Positions 24,098 to 47,431 are shown, numbered from the stretch's first letter. The stretch is 64,000 bases of DNA from a virus (IMGVR_UViG_3300047678_000094:33449-97448), one strand, 5' to 3'. Numbers and translations: made by a program. The notes: a model not told the origin generated them from the letters alone.

Positions 24098-24528
24098 TGA
24101 GTAACGATCTAGACAAAGCACTCAATGTAGCGCCAGCCAAAGACACCCCTCTTGTGCATGGGGAACTTGTTGTTCCTGTTGTAGAACAACTTCCAGCTGT
24201 CATTGATGCTGACTCTTCAGATGATAAAGAGGTGGATGAAGATTTCCAACTCGCCCGTGAAAACATAAAAGAATTGCTTGAGCAAGGCAAGGACGTCTTC
24301 GCTGAGATGCTCCAGGTCGCCAAACAATCGCAACATCCAAGAGCATTCGAGGTCTTAGGCAACCTCATGAAAATTGCGGTTGACACCAACAAAGACCTAT
24401 TAACGCTTAGAAAGCAAAAAAGGGAGTTGGTCAAGAAGACCGATGGGTCCCCAACTACGGTAAACAACAACCTGGTGTTGAGTACAGCCGATCTTCTCAA
24501 ATTGATCAAAAATCAGACTAATGAGTAA
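24097..24528 (+). CDS. 16: Small terminase subunit gp16
   Basis: The 143-residue protein shows the gp16 core: DEDFQLARENIKELLEQGK, then AKQSQHPRAFEVLGNLMKIA, then NKDLLTL. gp16 recognises DNA and regulates the gp17 packaging motor. The length is near that of T4 gp16. It overlaps the start of the terminase large-subunit gene by 8 bp, which is consistent with coupled synthesis. Confidence 0.9.
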   Translation: MSNDLDKALNVAPAKDTPLVHGELVVPVVEQLPAVIDADSSDDKEVDEDFQLARENIKELLEQGKDVFAEMLQVAKQSQHPRAFEVLGNLMKIAVDTNKDLLTLRKQKRELVKKTDGSPTTVNNNLVLSTADLLKLIKNQTNE

Positions 24529-25459
24529 CGAAAGACAATCATACTTAGGAAACCCGAAACTAAAAAGATCTAACGTCGCTGTCGAATGGACACCCCTTCA
24601 GTTGAAGGAGTACATAAAATGCTCGCAAGATCCAATTTACTTCATCCACAAATACTGTAAGATCATTCACGTGGACCGAGGCTTGATTAACTTCAAGCTG
24701 CACGAATTCCAAGAAGAGATGATCCGAACGTTCTCGGAAAACCGTTTCGTAATATGCAAGATGCCGCGTCAGGTGGGTAAGACCACGACGACAGCATCAT
24801 ACATTTTGTGGAAAGTTATCTTCAACGAATACACCAACGTCGCTATTCTTGCCAACAAAGACAAGAAGGCCCGAGAGATTCTGGACAGAATTCAGAAAAT
24901 GTTCGAGAACCTCCCAAGCTGGATGCAGCAGGGTGTTACAGAATGGAACAAAGGTAACGTTGAACTTGAGAACGGTTCTAAGATCGTTGCTACATCTACA
25001 TCTTCATCTGCCGCTCGTGGTGACACCTACAACCTTGTTTACCTTGATGAGTTTGCGCACGTTGAACGTAACATCCAAGACGACTTCTTCACATCCGTGT
25101 ACCCAACCATTTCATCGGGTGAAAAGACGCAGCTTATCATTACATCCACACCAAAGGGTATGGAGCTCTTCTACAAAATCTGGATTGATTCTGAAGAAGG
25201 TCGCAACAGCTACAAGCGCGTTGAGGTTCACTGGTCAGATATTCCTGGTCGTGACCAGAAGTGGAAAGAACAAGAGATCGCCAACACCTCGGAAGATAAG
25301 TTCCGCCAGGAATACGAATGTGTTGATGGAAAAACAAAAATAACCATTAGAAACAAGAAAACTGGTAAAACCAAGAAACTTACAATCAATAAATTTATAA
25401 ATATGATTGTAAGTTCCTCGGAGAACGAAGATGCACTACAGAAAAGTGTGGGAGAATAA
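24521..25459 (+). CDS. 17: Terminase large subunit gp17, N-terminal extein plus split-intein N fragment
   Basis: The 312-residue product carries the packaging ATPase: Walker A PRQVGKTT (Lys87), Walker B LVYLDEFAH (Asp176, Glu177) and motif III ITSTPKG. The terminase sequence stops after FRQEYE (residue 266). From Cys267 the sequence CVDGKTKITI is an intein start (block A), and it runs 46 residues to the stop. The missing nuclease half is encoded from 25993 after an HNH gene. The nucleophile Cys267 and the acceptor Cys in the second gene would rejoin the exteins as ...EYE-CEFLGS... by protein trans-splicing. Without splicing the ATPase domain alone would be made. Confidence 0.92.
   Translation: MSNERQSYLGNPKLKRSNVAVEWTPLQLKEYIKCSQDPIYFIHKYCKIIHVDRGLINFKLHEFQEEMIRTFSENRFVICKMPRQVGKTTTTASYILWKVIFNEYTNVAILANKDKKAREILDRIQKMFENLPSWMQQGVTEWNKGNVELENGSKIVATSTSSSAARGDTYNLVYLDEFAHVERNIQDDFFTSVYPTISSGEKTQLIITSTPKGMELFYKIWIDSEEGRNSYKRVEVHWSDIPGRDQKWKEQEIANTSEDKFRQEYECVDGKTKITIRNKKTGKTKKLTINKFINMIVSSSENEDALQKSVGE
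25319..25456 (+). other. Split intein, N-terminal fragment (IntN, 46 aa)
   Basis: Coding bases for residues 267-312 of the first terminase gene. It starts with the catalytic Cys and contains only the block A region plus a short helix (LTINKFINM). No block B motif is present, so the break lies between blocks A and B instead of at the canonical position after block B. This is the atypical layout that I recall for the AceL-TerL intein. Confidence 0.85.
25396..25403 (+). promoter_or_regulatory. Late promoter inside the intein N fragment, for the HNH gene
   Basis: A perfect TATAAATA sits 27 bp upstream of the HNH gene start at 25431, within the IntN coding sequence. CTCGGAGAACGAAG just before the ATG supplies a GGAGAA ribosome binding site. 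Confidence 0.6.
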
Positions 25460-26003
25460 ATTTGGAAAAATCCCAACCGATGAAAATGGATTTAAATATG
25501 AAATACACCACATAGATGGTAACAGAAAAAACAATTCTATTGAAAATCTACAATGTATAACAATTTTGGAACATCTTCAAATTCACATAAACCGTGGTGA
25601 TTGGGGTGCTGTTGCTCTCATTGGAAAGAGAATTGGTCTTGGACCAAAATATATGTCAGAAGTCCAAAGAGGTGTTAAACGCCTGGGAGTTGGCGGTGCT
25701 AAAAAAGGAAGAACACCTTGGAACAAAAACAAAAAAGGGTGTTTCTCAAAGGAAACAATTGATAAGTTTAAAACTTCCAGAAAGGGTAGAAGATTTTCGC
25801 CATTGAAAATTTCTGATTCTGATTGTCAAAAAATTATCTCATTGTATGCTAATAAACCAAAAATGGTTGGAGCTGGCAAGAAAAGCAAAAACGGTAGAAT
25901 AATGTCTTATGAGACAGCTTTCAGCAATTGTATTTCTAAAGAATATAGCGTTACTCCAAAACAAATATGTAACATAATAACAGGTAAACGTAATGTTCTA
26001 TAA
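25431..26003 (+). CDS. Free-standing HNH homing endonuclease between intein halves
   Basis: The 190-residue protein has an N-terminal HNH nuclease motif (YEIHHIDGNRKNNSIENL, residues about 24-41), then basic repeats (NUMOD-like GAKKGRTPWNKN and KTSRKGRRF), and a C-terminal DNA-binding helix-turn-helix-like segment. It overlaps the IntN-bearing gene by 29 bp and the IntC-bearing gene by 11 bp, so it is embedded exactly in the break of the terminase. It is the likely agent that mobilises the intein/terminase locus. AT content is high relative to the terminase exteins. Confidence 0.88.
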   Translation: MHYRKVWENKFGKIPTDENGFKYEIHHIDGNRKNNSIENLQCITILEHLQIHINRGDWGAVALIGKRIGLGPKYMSEVQRGVKRLGVGGAKKGRTPWNKNKKGCFSKETIDKFKTSRKGRRFSPLKISDSDCQKIISLYANKPKMVGAGKKSKNGRIMSYETAFSNCISKEYSVTPKQICNIITGKRNVL

Positions 26004-26316
26004 GAACGATAACTTTGAAATTCTAACACCAAGTGGCTTCAAAGAGTTTGCTGGTGTGCAGGAAGTTATCAAATGTGGTAAAATAGAACTGACGTTGAAC
26101 AATGGTAACAGATTAATCTGTGCATCCAAACACAACATTTTGACTGATAGTGGTTGGATTGAATCTGGAAAATTGAGAAGAGACAGCAAAGTAATTACCA
26201 AAGATGGTTTGGTCGGTTTATACCACATTGAACTTTTGGATGACGAACACACATTTTATGATATTGTCGGTGTTCCTAATTTTGAATACTATACTAATGG
26301 TATAGTTTCTCACAAC
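25993..26316 (+). other. Split intein, C-terminal fragment (IntC, 108 aa)
   Basis: Residues 1-108 of the second terminase gene. It holds the block B, F and G regions and ends in His107-Asn108 before Cys+1. Its opening MFYKNDNFEILTPSGF resembles the C fragment of the AceL-TerL intein, which sits at the same terminase site (from memory). Confidence 0.85.
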
Positions 26317-27180
26317 TGCGAATTCCTTGGTTCCGCCAACACCCTTATCCACCCTTCTAAGTTGCGCACATTAGCTTGGAAAAAACCAATCAAACAAAAC
26401 CATCTTGGGCTCAAGGAATACTATGAGCCTGATCCAAACACCGTATATGCGATGGTGGTGGACACGGCCCGTGGTGCAGGGGCAGACTATTCCGCATTCA
26501 TCGTGGTGAACGTTTCGACGTTCCCATACAAGATTGTCGCGACGTTTAAGAACAACACCATCTCACCATTGATTCTGCCAAACATCATTTACGAGACGGC
26601 TAAATACTACAATAATGCTTTGGTACTTGTAGAGACAAACGATATTGGTCAACAGGTAGCAGATATTCTACACTACGATCTAGAGTATGAGGGTATGCTT
26701 GTTTCTGCCATGTCTGGTCGTAACGGCCAGTCGCTATCTGGTGGTTTCGCAACGTCTACCCATAAAGGAGTGAGAACAACAAAACAGGTCAAGAGAATTG
26801 GATGCGCCACATTAAAGACGCTTGTTGAGTCAGACAAACTTATCATCGAGGATGCTGATGTCATTTATGAGTTAACGAGATTCGTGCTCAAAGGACAGTC
26901 ATATGAAGCTGAAGATGGTAATGATGATCTTGCTATGTGCTGTGTTCTATTTGGTTGGCTTTCTACTCAGTCATACTTACGAGAAATTACGGACCTTGAT
27001 GTTAGGAAAAAGATCTACGAACAAAACGAAAGAATGCTCGAAGACGAAATGCTCCCATTCGGGATCTTTGCCACCGGGGACGATGAAATAGACGAAAAAA
27101 TCAACGACGCTCCTACAGTTCTTGACCGACGTCCTAGAGACGAGTTCGGTGGGTTCTTTGGAAGCGCCGCAACAGACTAA
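25993..27180 (+). CDS. 17: Split-intein C fragment plus terminase large subunit gp17, nuclease half
   Basis: The first 108 of 395 residues are intein: ILTPSGFKEF, a block-B-like ASKHNIL, block F FYDIVGVPNFEYYTNG and block G IVSHN ending at Asn108. Residue 109 is the acceptor Cys, which opens the C-extein CEFLGSANTLI, the normal continuation of T4-like gp17. The C-extein (287 aa) has the RNase-H-like nuclease, with Asp157 in MVVDTARGAGADYS and the DGNDDLAMCC motif. The two exteins sum to about 553 residues, a normal size for the cyanophage-type enzyme. Trans-splicing is expected to be needed for a functional packaging motor. Confidence 0.92.
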   Translation: MFYKNDNFEILTPSGFKEFAGVQEVIKCGKIELTLNNGNRLICASKHNILTDSGWIESGKLRRDSKVITKDGLVGLYHIELLDDEHTFYDIVGVPNFEYYTNGIVSHNCEFLGSANTLIHPSKLRTLAWKKPIKQNHLGLKEYYEPDPNTVYAMVVDTARGAGADYSAFIVVNVSTFPYKIVATFKNNTISPLILPNIIYETAKYYNNALVLVETNDIGQQVADILHYDLEYEGMLVSAMSGRNGQSLSGGFATSTHKGVRTTKQVKRIGCATLKTLVESDKLIIEDADVIYELTRFVLKGQSYEAEDGNDDLAMCCVLFGWLSTQSYLREITDLDVRKKIYEQNERMLEDEMLPFGIFATGDDEIDEKINDAPTVLDRRPRDEFGGFFGSAATD

Positions 27181-27202
27181 AATTCGCGTGGAACCAGCGT
27201 TT

Positions 27203-27210
27203 TATAAATA
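27203..27210 (+). promoter_or_regulatory. Late promoter of gene 18
   Basis: A perfect TATAAATA lies 42 bp upstream of the tail sheath start; GTAGGGAGAA supplies the ribosome binding site. Confidence 0.65.
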
Positions 27211-27251
27211 AGAGTAACAGCTAAACCACCCGTAACGATTGTAGGGAGAAT

Positions 27252-29813
27252 ATGTCGATGACGTTCCAAGTAAGCCCAGGTATCAATGTATCAGAGATTG
27301 ATTTAACAACCTCTATACCAGCCGTGGCGACCGCAGTAGGTGCGTTCGCAGGTCCATTCAACTGGGGACCCATCGGTAAATTTTCACTAATCACAGGCGA
27401 GAATGATCTCGCAGCCCGTTATGGAAAACCTAACAGCGACAACTTCGAGAGCTTCTTCTCAGCGGCAAACTATCTCGCTTATGCAAATCGTCTCTATGTA
27501 AGTCGAGCAGCTAAGACAAGCGGTTTCTCAAACACAGTCACGACAGCCCTTATCGGAAACAACGTTCTTCTCGCATACTCTTCAGATGCTGGTCTAGCGG
27601 CTGGATATGGCGTGTTCGGAACAGGTATCCCAGATGAAGCAACAATCGTTTCTGCAAACAACACCGCTCTGTCGAATACTTTCAACGCCAACACCGCTGT
27701 TGCATCAAACGGACAAATCACTCTGTCTGCAAACCCATTCGTAACTGGTGAAACCGTAGTTTACACTACAGCTACAGGTAACACTGTACTAACAGAACTT
27801 GCAAACAACTCAACGTACTTCGTGCGTGCAGCAAACACAACCACCCTTTATCTTTCTGCTACAGTCGACGGATCTGTTATCACCCTTACAAAAGGTGTGA
27901 CGGAAGCTGGACACACACTAACTCGTAGCGGCGTGACTCGCGTAACTCTCTCAGCAAACGCCACAACCGGAAACGTTGCATCGCCACAGCTGACCACGGT
28001 CAACTACTTTGACACTGCTCTATCATTCAACGCTGTAGCAAACTCTGCCGCAGTGACAAACCGTTCAGCGGCTATCGTAAAGAACTCTGATCATTACGAT
28101 ACTGTAACCTTCCCTTCAGGTGTTGAGTGGGTGGCAAAATACCCATCCGACCTTGGTAACTCTCTGAAGGTATCCGTGTGTGACTCTGCTGACCAATATC
28201 AGTCAACACTTACACCATACTCAATGACAGCTGGTGGTGTTACATCCAACAGCACAGTAATCCCAGGCGGAGCAGGAATCACTGTTGCGCTGAACGCAAA
28301 CAGCGCCACAATCTATGTCGCCAACTCTGCCACACTGAGCTCAGCAAACGCTGCACTTCTTGCAGAAGGGCTAGCTGATTCGTTGATTGTTGGTGACGTT
28401 CTTGAAGTTGGAAACAACTCTATCAACAAGCAAAAACTGAAGATCTCTGCAATCGGTGCTGTGTCGACAGCTTCTGGTAACTCTTCGTTCACTGTGAGCT
28501 TCGATGGAACATATGCTCTGTCAACAGCCTTCTCAGCTAATACGATTTCTCGTTACTGGGAATATGCTTCGATTGTTGGAAAAGCCCCAGGAACAAGCCC
28601 CGCTGTTGAAGCTCTAAACCGTAGCATTGTGGATGAACTTCACATCGTTGTGGTTGATGAAGATGGCAAATTCTCTGGCGCGCCAGGAACTGTTCTCGAA
28701 GCATTCACAAGCCTATCACGTTCTACGGATGCTCGTAACGATGATGGTTCGTCAGGATACTACAAGACAACAATCAACGACCTATCTCGCTATCTCTGGT
28801 GGGCTGCAGACCGTCCAGGAGCCGCTTCAAACACCGCTGCTCTAGTCGCTGCTTCTACAGCACTTGTACCATACACAGTTTCTCTGACAGGTGGTACAAC
28901 TGGTGCTTCTGAATCAGACATCGCTGCGGCCGACCTGGCAGCTGCTTGGGATCTATTCGCAGATACAGCATCTGTAGATGTATCACTTCTGATCGCAGGT
29001 AAACCAGCCGGTGCCTCTGGAACACAGATGGCCAACTACATCATCGACAACATCGCAGAAGCTCGCAAAGACTGCGTCGCCTTCATCTCACCACAGAAGT
29101 CTGACGTTGTCAGAACTGATGGTGCTGAGGCTGACTCTGTAGTAACCTTCCGCGATGGTCTCCGTAGCACTAGCTACGCTGTGATGGACTCTGGGTACAA
29201 GTATCAGTATGACAAGTACAATGATGTGTATCGTTGGGTTCCTTTGAACGGTGACATCGCTGGTCTAACAGCCCGTACCGACCAAACACGTGACCCTTGG
29301 TTCTCACCAGCCGGATTTAACCGTGGTTCTATCAAGAACGTGGTAAAATTGGCTTGGAACCCAAAACAAGCAGCACGTGACGTTCTGTATGGTAAAGGTA
29401 TTGATCCAGTTGTTACTTTCCCAGGACAAGGTACAATCCTCTTTGGAGACAAAACTCTACTGACCAAGGAAAGCGCCTTTAACCGCATTAACATTCGTCG
29501 TCTCTTCATTATCCTAGAAAAAGCGATTGCTAACGCCGCAAACGCAATGTTGTTCGAATTCAACGACGAGTTTACTCGTGCGCAATTCAAGAACATTGTT
29601 GAGCCTTTCCTCCGTGATGTGCAAGGTCGCCGTGGTATCTACGACTTCCGCGTAGTCTGCGACGAAACAAACAACACATCAGAAGTAGTTGATAGTAGTC
29701 GCTTCGTTGGTGATATCTACATCAAGCCAGCTAAGTCGATTAATTTTATTCAATTGAATTTTGTCGCAGTGCGTTCAGGTGTTGAATTTGATGAAATCAT
29801 CGGACAATTCTAA
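27252..29813 (+). CDS. 18: Tail sheath protein gp18
   Basis: The 853-residue protein begins with VSPGINVSEIDLTTSIP and GAFAGPFNWGPIG, the standard sheath N-terminus. It ends with the conserved sheath C-terminal region (FNRINIRRLFIILEKAIANA and DGKLWIDVRVKPA-like DIYIKPAKSINFIQLNF). T4 gp18 is 659 residues. The extra length lies in an Asn/Thr/Ser/Ala-rich insert (about residues 90-440) that probably forms surface domains. Sheath subunits contract during injection. The gene is followed immediately by an inserted homing gene. Confidence 0.93.
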   Translation: MSMTFQVSPGINVSEIDLTTSIPAVATAVGAFAGPFNWGPIGKFSLITGENDLAARYGKPNSDNFESFFSAANYLAYANRLYVSRAAKTSGFSNTVTTALIGNNVLLAYSSDAGLAAGYGVFGTGIPDEATIVSANNTALSNTFNANTAVASNGQITLSANPFVTGETVVYTTATGNTVLTELANNSTYFVRAANTTTLYLSATVDGSVITLTKGVTEAGHTLTRSGVTRVTLSANATTGNVASPQLTTVNYFDTALSFNAVANSAAVTNRSAAIVKNSDHYDTVTFPSGVEWVAKYPSDLGNSLKVSVCDSADQYQSTLTPYSMTAGGVTSNSTVIPGGAGITVALNANSATIYVANSATLSSANAALLAEGLADSLIVGDVLEVGNNSINKQKLKISAIGAVSTASGNSSFTVSFDGTYALSTAFSANTISRYWEYASIVGKAPGTSPAVEALNRSIVDELHIVVVDEDGKFSGAPGTVLEAFTSLSRSTDARNDDGSSGYYKTTINDLSRYLWWAADRPGAASNTAALVAASTALVPYTVSLTGGTTGASESDIAAADLAAAWDLFADTASVDVSLLIAGKPAGASGTQMANYIIDNIAEARKDCVAFISPQKSDVVRTDGAEADSVVTFRDGLRSTSYAVMDSGYKYQYDKYNDVYRWVPLNGDIAGLTARTDQTRDPWFSPAGFNRGSIKNVVKLAWNPKQAARDVLYGKGIDPVVTFPGQGTILFGDKTLLTKESAFNRINIRRLFIILEKAIANAANAMLFEFNDEFTRAQFKNIVEPFLRDVQGRRGIYDFRVVCDETNNTSEVVDSSRFVGDIYIKPAKSINFIQLNFVAVRSGVEFDEIIGQF

Positions 29814-30398
29814 ATGATAGATCGCACACCATATACTTACTTGATTGGCTGGAAACATCTAAACTTGTGGTATTTTGGTGTGCGATATGCTAAAAATTGT
29901 CATCCATCAGAATTATGGAAAAAATATAAAACATCATCAAAAAAAGTTTTAGAACAAGTAAAACTTTCTGGTAATCCAGATGTTATTGAGGTTCGTGATA
30001 TATTTGATTGTGTTGAGAAGGCTAGAAATCATGAACATAAAGTTTTGAAAAAACTTGGTGTTATTCGATCATCTAAGTGGTTAAACGAAACAGATAATAA
30101 ATCGTTCTCAATCGAAGCTTCTAGAAAGGCATCTCTTTCTGATATTTCTAGATTGAGAAAATCTAATTCGCATATTGGTAAACCTGGTCCAAACAGAGGC
30201 AGAAAATTTTCAGAAGAAACTAAAATGAAAATGTCTTTGGCTAGAAAAGGTAAGAAACGGCCTGAACACTCCGAAAAGATGCGCAAGGCTCAAAAAGATG
30301 GTGGATTCCATAAAGGTTTTTTACATACTTTAGAAACTCGCCAAAAAATGAGTAATTCTAGATTGAATTACTGTGCATCAAAACAACTAAATAATTAA
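29814..30398 (+). CDS. Putative GIY-YIG/NUMOD homing endonuclease
   Basis: The 194-residue protein has a divergent GIY-YIG-like start (YTYLIGWKHLNLWYFGVRYA), a basic middle and NUMOD3-like DNA-binding repeats (NRGRKFSEETKMKMSLARKG, then KKRPEHSEKM). It belongs to a different subfamily from the other four intact homing genes here. It starts directly after the gene 18 stop with no ribosome binding site of its own, so it may be translated by coupling. The AT-rich base composition supports a mobile origin. Confidence 0.78.
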   Translation: MIDRTPYTYLIGWKHLNLWYFGVRYAKNCHPSELWKKYKTSSKKVLEQVKLSGNPDVIEVRDIFDCVEKARNHEHKVLKKLGVIRSSKWLNETDNKSFSIEASRKASLSDISRLRKSNSHIGKPGPNRGRKFSEETKMKMSLARKGKKRPEHSEKMRKAQKDGGFHKGFLHTLETRQKMSNSRLNYCASKQLNN

Positions 30399-30417: not shown

Positions 30418-30954
30418 ATGGCCTTCTCGATCAACGAAATCAAAAGTCAGCTTGCCGGTGGTGGTGCTCGTCAGAACCTGTTCCAAGTTCGTATTACGAA
30501 CCCCGCGAACGGATCAGCTGACATCAAGGTACCATTCCTTGTTCAAGCTTCGCAAATCCCAGCTGCCGGGTTGGGAACCATTCAGGTCCCTTACTTCGGC
30601 CGCACTATCAAACTTGCCGGCGATCGCCAATTCGCTGCCTGGGAAGTTTTGGTAATCAACGACGAAGACTTCAAAATCAGAAATGCTATGGAAGAGTGGT
30701 CTAACAAGATCAACCGCTTCCAAGGTAACATCCGAGAACTGGCAAACTACAAGTCTCAAGCTCAGGTAATTCAATATGGTAAGGACGGCACCATCCTACG
30801 CGAGTATGAGTTTGTCGGTCTGTGGCCTTCTCAAATTTCTGAAATCAGCCTTGACTGGGGTTCTAACGATCAAATCGAAACGTTCGGTGTGACCTTTGAG
30901 TATGACTTCTGGAGAGTTTCCGGTGGTACAACAGGAAACGCTGGAGGACAGTGA
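30418..30954 (+). CDS. 19: Tail tube protein gp19
   Basis: The 178-residue protein starts MAFSINEIKSQLAGGGARQN and contains PFLVQASQIPAAGLG and FGRTIKLAGDRQFAAWEV, the signature of T4-like tail tube subunits. Hexameric rings of gp19 stack inside the sheath. The position after gene 18 is conserved, although a homing gene now separates the two. Confidence 0.93.
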   Translation: MAFSINEIKSQLAGGGARQNLFQVRITNPANGSADIKVPFLVQASQIPAAGLGTIQVPYFGRTIKLAGDRQFAAWEVLVINDEDFKIRNAMEEWSNKINRFQGNIRELANYKSQAQVIQYGKDGTILREYEFVGLWPSQISEISLDWGSNDQIETFGVTFEYDFWRVSGGTTGNAGGQ

Positions 30955-30960
30955 GACGGC

Positions 30961-31004
30961 CGTTTTTATAAATAGACTCTGAAAAGGAGATCTATTATGA
31001 GTGA
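30961..31004 (+). promoter_or_regulatory. Homing-gene leader cassette, second copy
   Basis: These 44 bp are identical to 21558-21601 and include TATAAATA (30967-30974) and AAGGAGAT. The ACGGCCGT palindrome followed by TTTTTAT at its left edge could also act as a weak terminator after gene 19. Confidence 0.8.
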
Positions 31005-31680
31005 AAAATATGGGTTTGTATATGTTTGGTATGATTGTTGGAGAAAGATGTTCTACGTTGGTTGCCATTGGGGAACTGAAGATGATGGATATATTTGTTC
31101 TTCTGACAGAATGCGAAAAGCTTATCGAAGAAGACCAGAAGATTTCAAACGTCGAGTAGTGTTTCGTACAAACGAATCAAGACAAACACTACTCGACGTT
31201 GAAGATAGTTGGTTGAAGTTGATAAAAGAACACGAGATTGGAAAAAAATACTACAATCTCCGTGTTCACAAATTTGGTCACTGGTCTGCTGTCAAAGATT
31301 TATCGTTAAGTGTTAATCAAAAACTTTCTAGAGCACACAAAGGATACCACCGATCGCCTTCTACAGAATTCAAAAAGGGACAACGAATATCTCCATCTAC
31401 TGAATTTCAGAAAGGTGTCGGCTCGTTCAACTCTGGTAAAACGTTAGAAGAACAATTTGGAAAACGACGTGCTTCAGAAATTAAGAATAAGATGTCAAAA
31501 ACCAAAAAAGGAAAACCACTAAACTCTCCTACTAAATTCAAACCTGGTCAGCCTAGCTGGAATAAAGGATTGAAACGTACTTTTATCACAAATGGTTATG
31601 TTACTAAAGCATTATATGGTGATGATATAAGTATTCCTGAAGGATGGCGTAATGGTATGAAAAGTAGGAAAGCTGCATAA
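30997..31680 (+). CDS. GIY-YIG-like homing endonuclease
   Basis: The 227-residue paralogue of the 21594 product starts MSEKYGFVYVWYD and shares FYVGCHWGTEDDGYICSS. The C-terminal half is basic with repeated ST(E/K)FKxGQ motifs and NUMOD3-like segments. It is inserted between genes 19 and 20 with its own late promoter. Its stop overlaps the portal gene start (TAATG), and the protein ends in KAA like its relatives. Confidence 0.85.
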   Translation: MSEKYGFVYVWYDCWRKMFYVGCHWGTEDDGYICSSDRMRKAYRRRPEDFKRRVVFRTNESRQTLLDVEDSWLKLIKEHEIGKKYYNLRVHKFGHWSAVKDLSLSVNQKLSRAHKGYHRSPSTEFKKGQRISPSTEFQKGVGSFNSGKTLEEQFGKRRASEIKNKMSKTKKGKPLNSPTKFKPGQPSWNKGLKRTFITNGYVTKALYGDDISIPEGWRNGMKSRKAA

Positions 31681-46618: not shown

Positions 46619-46847
46619 TCAAAGTTACAAAGTTTTGGCGGACAGCCTTGGTGTTCCTCTAATCCCGAAACGAAAAGCTCCAAACCGTATTGATACAAAT
46701 GGACCGGTTGCTGTTTGTGGAGAATGTGGTGTGACTGTTTACCGTGTTATGGCTTATAGCTGTCCACATCAAAATTGCCCATGTGGTCTTGGTTCAGCCG
46801 GATCACTTTGTCTAAATAATAATGAATTGAGTGGGAGCTTGAAATAA
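46605..46847 (+). CDS. Small zinc-ribbon-like protein
   Basis: The 80-residue protein contains CGECGV and CPHQNCPCG, a four-to-five cysteine arrangement with a His that would bind zinc. The stop overlaps the peptide deformylase start (TAATG). It may bind nucleic acid. No named family is recognised. Confidence 0.55.
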   Translation: MNDYSQSYKVLADSLGVPLIPKRKAPNRIDTNGPVAVCGECGVTVYRVMAYSCPHQNCPCGLGSAGSLCLNNNELSGSLK

Positions 46848-47431
46848 TGGAAACGCAACAACCCTTACCAGAATTTAAGATTGAGGGGTCGGCGATGTTC
46901 ATCCCGACGGCTTTACCGTTGGTGTCTGAAAACGATCCAATTCTTAAACAGAAAACAGAACGATTTGACTTTGACAATCCACCGATGAACCCGGTCCAAT
47001 TGTATCAAAACTTAGGCCGAACTCTGATGGCGCATGACGCGCTTGGACTCGCTGCACCCCAAGTTGGACTGCCGTATCGGTTCTTTGTGCTTAGAACAGA
47101 AAATATTCTTGGAGTTTTCAACCCGATTTTGGTTGATAAATCTGAGGAAGAGGTTACAATGGAGGAAGGTTGTCTCTCATTCGTCAATCTATTCATTAAG
47201 ATCAAACGTCCACAGCGCATTCGCGCTCGTTTTACGACGCCGGATGGTCAGACGCAAACAGCAGTGTTTGATGGAATGACCGCGAGGGCGTTTCTACACG
47301 AGTATGATCACCTTGAAGGTAAGGTATTCACAACGGTCGCGAACCGTTTCCACCTTGATGCGGGTAGGAAGAAACGTCACCTAATAAAGTCCGGTAGATA
47401 TACCGTGAGTCATGTCATTAAGGAGGCCTAA
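46847..47431 (+). CDS. def: Peptide deformylase
   Basis: The 194-residue enzyme has all three deformylase motifs: GLAAPQVGL, EEGCLSF with the metal-binding Cys, and HEYDHLEG with two His ligands and the catalytic Glu. It removes the N-formyl group from nascent proteins. Phage deformylases are known from T4-like cyanophages, where they are thought to support host or phage protein turnover. It lies upstream of the dioxygenase in the same direction with no gap. Confidence 0.95.
   Translation: METQQPLPEFKIEGSAMFIPTALPLVSENDPILKQKTERFDFDNPPMNPVQLYQNLGRTLMAHDALGLAAPQVGLPYRFFVLRTENILGVFNPILVDKSEEEVTMEEGCLSFVNLFIKIKRPQRIRARFTTPDGQTQTAVFDGMTARAFLHEYDHLEGKVFTTVANRFHLDAGRKKRHLIKSGRYTVSHVIKEA

Follow-up and report, generated by a model that had tools for sequence, protein, structure and literature searches.

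How could a phage assemble its DNA packaging motor when the gene for the large terminase subunit (terL) is broken into two genes with a nuclease gene lodged between them? This question was raised by a 64,000-nucleotide stretch of viral DNA (the window), which covers positions 33449-97448 of the 97,448-base IMG/VR virus record IMGVR_UViG_3300047678_000094, itself a fragment. The record encodes T4-type structural proteins (tail sheath, tail tube, portal, protease, scaffold and major head protein), and its terL is interrupted by the two parts of a putative split intein, an N-terminal part (IntN) and a C-terminal part (IntC), on either side of an HNH endonuclease gene. As detailed below, the comparative evidence indicated that this segment is very probably a mobile fractured-gene cassette in the terL of a T4-superfamily phage, which would be tolerated through protein trans-splicing and spread through homing.

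The locus consists of three plus-strand open reading frames (ORFs) at 24521-25459 (312 residues), 25431-26003 (190 residues) and 25993-27180 (395 residues), which lie in frames 2, 0 and 1 and overlap by 29 and 11 nt. The first encodes the TerL-N extein (24521-25318), comprising 266 residues of a T4 gp17-like ATPase domain that end in FRQEYE, and continues into IntN (25319-25459), which contains only the block A side of an intein plus a stop codon. IntN (CVDGKTKITIRN...QKSVGE) has 46 residues counting Cys1, and its final 29 nt lie within the second ORF, the free-standing HNH gene. The ATG of the third ORF is located 11 nt inside the HNH gene and starts the 108-residue IntC (25993-26316), whose end (...GIVSHN) is directly followed by the TerL-C extein (26317-27180; 287 residues plus stop), an RNase H-like nuclease domain beginning with Cys+1 (CEFLGS). 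Pfam searches matched Terminase_6N (1.9e-28), HNH_3 (1.6e-13) and Terminase_6C (7e-13) in the first, second and third ORF, respectively, and Intein_splicing in the third ORF at a sub-threshold 8e-4. An enzyme gene is hence broken by a split intein, and a free-standing endonuclease gene lies between the halves, as in the definition of a fractured gene. The original prediction, made from this stretch of DNA, had proposed a terminase in two genes, intein halves and an intact HNH gene overlapping both. All of this was borne out by the ORFs and their domains, as was the Cys start of IntN; the length of IntN had been given as Cys plus 46 codons, whereas it is Cys plus 45.

Three ORFs in three frames with short overlaps might also be expected from a broken gene or an assembly error, in which a frameshifted contiguous intein mimics three genes. 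However, three contigs of other metagenomes, at 74-80% protein identity, are broken at the same point and show this gene order and short overlap, and tens of loci repeat the layout around other nucleases. Of 65 three-gene loci, 64 had the nuclease stop overlapping the start of IntC, and in the remaining one the two abutted; this count leans towards overlap since the start codon closest to the stop was taken. Moreover, Shine-Dalgarno-like sites precede both the second gene (GGAG, 7 nt upstream of the HNH ATG) and the third (AGGT, 7 nt upstream of the IntC ATG). An artifact of this kind is hardly conceivable.

When joined, the two exteins form a protein of 553 residues that aligned without gaps, at 94.2% identity, to the unbroken TerL of a near relative (contig L167). 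The insertion is codon-exact at Cys+1 and, as read from an alignment with structure 3ezk, falls between T353 and A354 of T4 gp17, adjoining the hinge between the ATPase and nuclease domains.

Several lines of evidence identified the interrupting sequences as intein halves. All residues characteristic of class 1 inteins are present: Cys1, block B His47 (26131-26133), block F Asp90 (26260-26262), the penultimate His107 and terminal Asn108 (26311-26316), and Cys+1. His47, Asp90, His107 and Asn108 were invariant among 51 IntCs from metagenome loci, and with three IntCs from isolates added, Asp90 was still conserved in at least 90%. An AlphaFold2 model of IntC (predicted local distance difference test score, 96.4; predicted template modeling score, 0.83) adopted the HINT fold. 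Its best PDB match by Foldseek was 6dsl, the engineered consensus intein Cat with an atypical split (E value, 3e-7; probability, 1.00; TM-score, 0.79), followed by gp41-1 and VidaL, and every one of the 49 PDB matches at E values of ≤1e-3 was an intein or related HINT domain. In a phmmer search with IntN plus IntC, 6dsl was also the best sequence match (1.6e-12). The proposed atypical split between blocks A and B was upheld: block B resides in IntC, and the 46 residues of IntN fall within the range of about 15 to 46 residues for atypically split inteins. We therefore assign the element as an atypically split class 1 intein of the AceL/Cat type at the gp17 hinge. Since its IntC model matches the Cat structure and tens of independent contigs repeat this arrangement, the split-intein layout is far beyond chance.

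TerL split inteins are known to splice in trans, with IntN/IntC lengths of 25/104 residues for AceL, 37/115 for GOS and 30/104 for Cat (PMC11766414). AceL-TerL, GOS-TerL and Cat-TerL resemble the window intein in their terminase host, a short IntN with a long IntC, and a break between blocks A and B; Cys1 and Cys+1 are common to AceL, Cat and the window intein (PMC11766414). In contrast to the Cat group, IntN of the window is longer (46 residues), and its IntC is only about one-third identical to CatC. L052, a locus at the same terminase site, has a sister IntC that matched CatC at 4.5e-57, and by this homology the family includes a biochemically characterized trans-splicing intein (Cat-TerL, AceL-TerL, GOS-TerL). 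Judging from the Cat match, the insertion site would be the same as that of AceL-TerL.

The halves might instead be rejoined at the RNA level, by a group I or II intron or a programmed frameshift. Phage introns often house HNH genes, and terL introns occur in related phages (PMC10448857). In the present locus, however, the flanking sequences code for conserved intein halves, with an insertion that respects the codon at Cys+1. In addition, no Rfam intron matched within 24300-27400 at E values of ≤1, where only one irrelevant hit was obtained. Protein splicing would thus be the far better account, and RNA-level rejoining carries next to no weight.

A further possibility is that the halves are never spliced and act as ATPase and nuclease subunits joined by intein remnants, as in NrdA of phage Aeh1, which is split by mobE. 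The break lies at the hinge of two domains, each of which folds on its own (structures 2o0h and 3c6a, determined separately), and Friedrich 2007, as far as cited in PMC10448857, described a split enzyme that functions without splicing. Yet the catalytic residues show little or no variation, and compared to the more distant contig L014, in which IntN has 85% amino acid identity, the ratio of nonsynonymous to synonymous substitution rates was 0.15 for IntN, 0.11 for the HNH gene and 0.05 for IntC. These values argue that all three are being kept functional, and merely holding two subunits together would require neither residue conservation nor such constraint on IntC. Furthermore, same-site homologues splice in vitro (PMC11766414). 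Permanently separate subunits are thus quite improbable. Searches of the 97-kb record, a fragment, found no second terL copy; because of this result and of the catalytic residues kept under purifying selection, a packaging motor that depends on trans-splicing would fit all data.

The composition of the cassette (25319-26316, 998 bp) is foreign to its surroundings. Its G+C content of 33.6% is lower than that of every other 998-bp segment of the window (mean, 44.1%; standard deviation, 3.3), and its third-position G+C fraction is 0.25 to 0.34, versus 0.46 to 0.55 in the exteins. A search with TerL-C revealed the exact empty site, GAATACGAG/TGCGAGTTC (the slash marks the insertion point), in six contigs (L167-L172) whose TerL-N and TerL-C are 95% and 93% identical to those of the window. 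The cassette is present in the more distant L014, with exteins 81% and 75% identical to the window. Synonymous differences between the window and L014 amounted to 0.64 in the cassette and 0.865 in the exteins (difference, 0.22; 95% bootstrap interval, 0.12 to 0.32), in a comparison that is near saturation. Because the nearest relatives are empty, the cassette occurs in distant L014, synonymous divergence is lower and G+C is low, the data fit a cassette acquired horizontally once this lineage had diverged from that of L167.

The likely agent of such transfer is the HNH protein (25431-26003), which combines an HNH_3 catalytic motif with a putative DNA-binding C-terminal part. Its catalytic head (25431-25670, residues 1-80; EIHHIDGN...NNS..NL...H...H) is I-TevIII-like and, over residues 1-78, 45 to 46% identical to I-TevIII and T4-type HNH_3 homing endonucleases; these differ in having an unrelated C-terminal part and in being encoded in group I introns or by genes standing alone. 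The head is followed by a NUMOD3-like linker motif (25680-25790; GVGGAKKG.TPWNKNKKGCFSKET), a generic element of phage homing endonucleases, and by a C-terminal tail (25791-26003, residues 121-190), which is common to GIY-YIG nucleases of the same terminase site and presumably binds the target. We scanned with the tail alone, without intein sequence, as the query, and 60 contigs were returned. Matches extending past residue 90, i.e., past the NUMOD3 motif, were located at this terminase site in 41 of 42 contigs; the sole long match away from terL (L155) proved to be a different GIY-YIG plus NUMOD3 protein with 28% identity. Contigs matching only the NUMOD3 motif were located elsewhere, except for L140, which is cut by the contig end.

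In the mechanism that we infer, the three overlapping genes would produce the TerL ATPase half with IntN, the HNH homing endonuclease, and IntC with the TerL nuclease half. IntN and IntC would pair up and carry out class 1 trans-splicing, yielding a normal TerL of 553 residues. The HNH protein would use its site-specific tail to cut the insert-free terL of a co-infecting phage, and break repair would copy the whole IntN-HNH-IntC cassette into the cut gene. Alternatively, splicing is real but the HNH protein has lost its homing role, being now a passenger or recruited for packaging or regulation, and the cassette is inherited vertically. Nuclease-less split forms do persist (L009, L036, L069 and others), and terminase-adjacent HNH proteins can assist packaging, at least in the HK97 case as cited in PMC10448857. 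Against this stand the empty sites of the closest relatives, the lower synonymous divergence, the foreign G+C content, the intact HNH motif under purifying selection and the confinement of the tail to the terminase site. Loss of homing is consequently unlikely, though less so than permanently unspliced subunits. The original prediction that the HNH gene mobilizes the cassette thus received good, indirect support from the empty sites, base composition, synonymous divergence and site-confined tail; cutting and homing themselves are presumed activities, and the gene probably mobilizes the whole cassette into related phages.

Several observations weigh against a spliced and mobile cassette. Block B has Ala where Thr or Ser stands in many inteins, with the His retained. 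IntN is the longest of the set, and its last ∼15 residues are without counterpart in most relatives. A fold search with the HNH protein gave no significant PDB match (best, I-HmuI; E value, 1.1). No co-conversion tract was visible, as identity neither rises nor drops beside the site, and the near saturation mentioned above limits the synonymous comparison with L014.

To place the locus among its relatives, an IntC-profile scan of IMG/VR was used, which returned at least 270 relatives, of which 80 were kept. Among IMG/VR and isolate phages, the N-extein ends at this site and is followed by IntC in at least 76 loci, mostly split around a nuclease gene. After addition of the tail-scan loci and removal of duplicates and nine empty or other-site records, 86 loci remained among the matches listed, with free IntNs of 26 to 46 residues. 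A nuclease gene in the gap is the commonest state at this site. In other loci the nuclease is fused to IntN (VP-1 [L002] and 1.244.A [L161]), the intein is split without a nuclease (EniLVp02 [L009], L036, L069 and others) or it is contiguous (L027). The IntCs of L069, which lacks a nuclease, and L075, which has one, are 99% identical; hence, the split persists through gain and loss of the nuclease gene.

Some loci depart from these states. Ser1 inteins, resembling GOS-TerL, occur at this site in L029, L034, L038, L043, L057, L062, L066 and L083, together with DUF559/MTES_1575 nucleases of 370 to 390 residues; the Ser1 locus L133 has a GIY-YIG nuclease with the shared tail instead. In L026, the gap region and IntC form one open frame of 296 residues, as though the nuclease were fused to IntC and not to IntN. 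In L108 (IMGVR_UViG_3300008108_001632), the N-extein runs straight into CEFLGS for 41 codons, although it is then followed by a nuclease tail, IntC and TerL-C. This reflects either a partial duplication or the assembly of an empty and an occupied allele into one contig.

The window locus thus belongs to a kind, the fractured gene with an atypically split TerL intein, that is common in environmental phages. Fractured genes, in which a split intein breaks an enzyme gene and a free-standing homing endonuclease gene lies between the halves, were reportedly described from phage-like metagenome contigs by Dassa et al. in 2009. In the fractured AceL NrdHF gene, the gap holds a GIY-YIG gene (PMC7891396). 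The window differs from both in its terL host, atypical split and HNH_3 nuclease with a site-specific tail. Among cultured phages, Yersinia phages phiR1-RT and TG1 and Pseudomonas phage PspYZU05 have the same three overlapping genes (TerL-N plus IntN, nuclease, and IntC plus TerL-C), but with an insertion at the Walker B site (YIDE/C...HN/CAF) and a different nuclease, which from its sequence we take to resemble the EDxHD/Vsr-like family. The Walker B split also occurs in phages kaaroe and JK32, relatives that can be grown on laboratory Escherichia coli (K-12 and XL1-Blue, respectively). Vibrio phages VP-1, 1.244.A and EniLVp02 have a split intein at the same terminase site as the window. The nuclease tail of VP-1 and 1.244.A is shared with the window; their nucleases differ in being fused to IntN (GIY-YIG in VP-1, head unclassified in 1.244.A), and EniLVp02 has none. 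The novelty that the original prediction implied for a natural phage with IntN, nuclease and IntC together was not supported, given the three-gene layout of phiR1-RT, TG1 and PspYZU05, the same-site split inteins of the three Vibrio phages and tens of environmental contigs. A further candidate, the "terminase plus endonuclease V" of cyanophage ACG-2014d, turned out to be an ordinary unbroken terL with the gene upstream. The terL of Campylobacter phage IBB_35 (L007) contains at least two intein-like inserts along with nuclease ORFs; its authors read it as an intein plus an intron (PMC3322345), and it is worth re-reading as stacked split inteins.

The nucleases at this terminase site vary in their heads. 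Among 55 that were scanned, 25 matched GIY-YIG, 15 HNH_3 and 8 DUF559/MTES_1575. GIY-YIG is the usual head at other loci, and one tail is common to the HNH_3 and GIY-YIG versions. The tail tree requires 5 changes of the head label (4 to 5 in bootstraps; well supported branches force at least 3; mean after shuffling, 10.6), and on the IntC tree HNH needs 4 changes; these trees have long branches and some open forks, and the unclassified head of L161 was counted as GIY-YIG. The clearest close pair of unlike heads is L126 (GIY-YIG) and L135 (HNH), with IntCs 73% and tails 42% identical. It is about an even call, in our judgment, whether the homing nuclease is modular by descent, its target-specific tail having been kept while HNH_3 and GIY-YIG heads were exchanged several times, and the nuclease gene and TerL-C are translationally coupled. 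Coupling would be a plausible consequence of the stop-start overlap. A literature search of open-licence papers found no earlier description of repeated head exchange on one target-specific tail. This apparent exchange is the newer part of the finding; the fractured-gene layout itself was already known.

Elsewhere in the window, two free-standing genes (29814-30398 and 30997-31680, the first with NUMOD3) with matches to phrog_314, a homing endonuclease family, lie on either side of the tail tube gene (30418-30954). The near relative L167 lacks the first of them, its flanks being contiguous there, so the tail-tube stretch is a second insertion hot spot. A peptide deformylase homologue is encoded at 46847-47428 (phrog_2890, 5.9e-38).

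For the biology of these phages, the loci form a well-dated natural series at a single codon of an essential gene: empty, contiguous, split without a nuclease, split with a fused nuclease, and split around a free-standing HNH, GIY-YIG or Vsr-like gene. Such a series is the material needed for testing how split inteins and homing nucleases combine, and the related cultured phages make assembly of a trans-spliced packaging motor testable in real infection. If coupled translation is true, an essential protein would be tied to a selfish gene, and a modular nuclease, if true, would be a natural case in which a single targeting domain has served different cutters.

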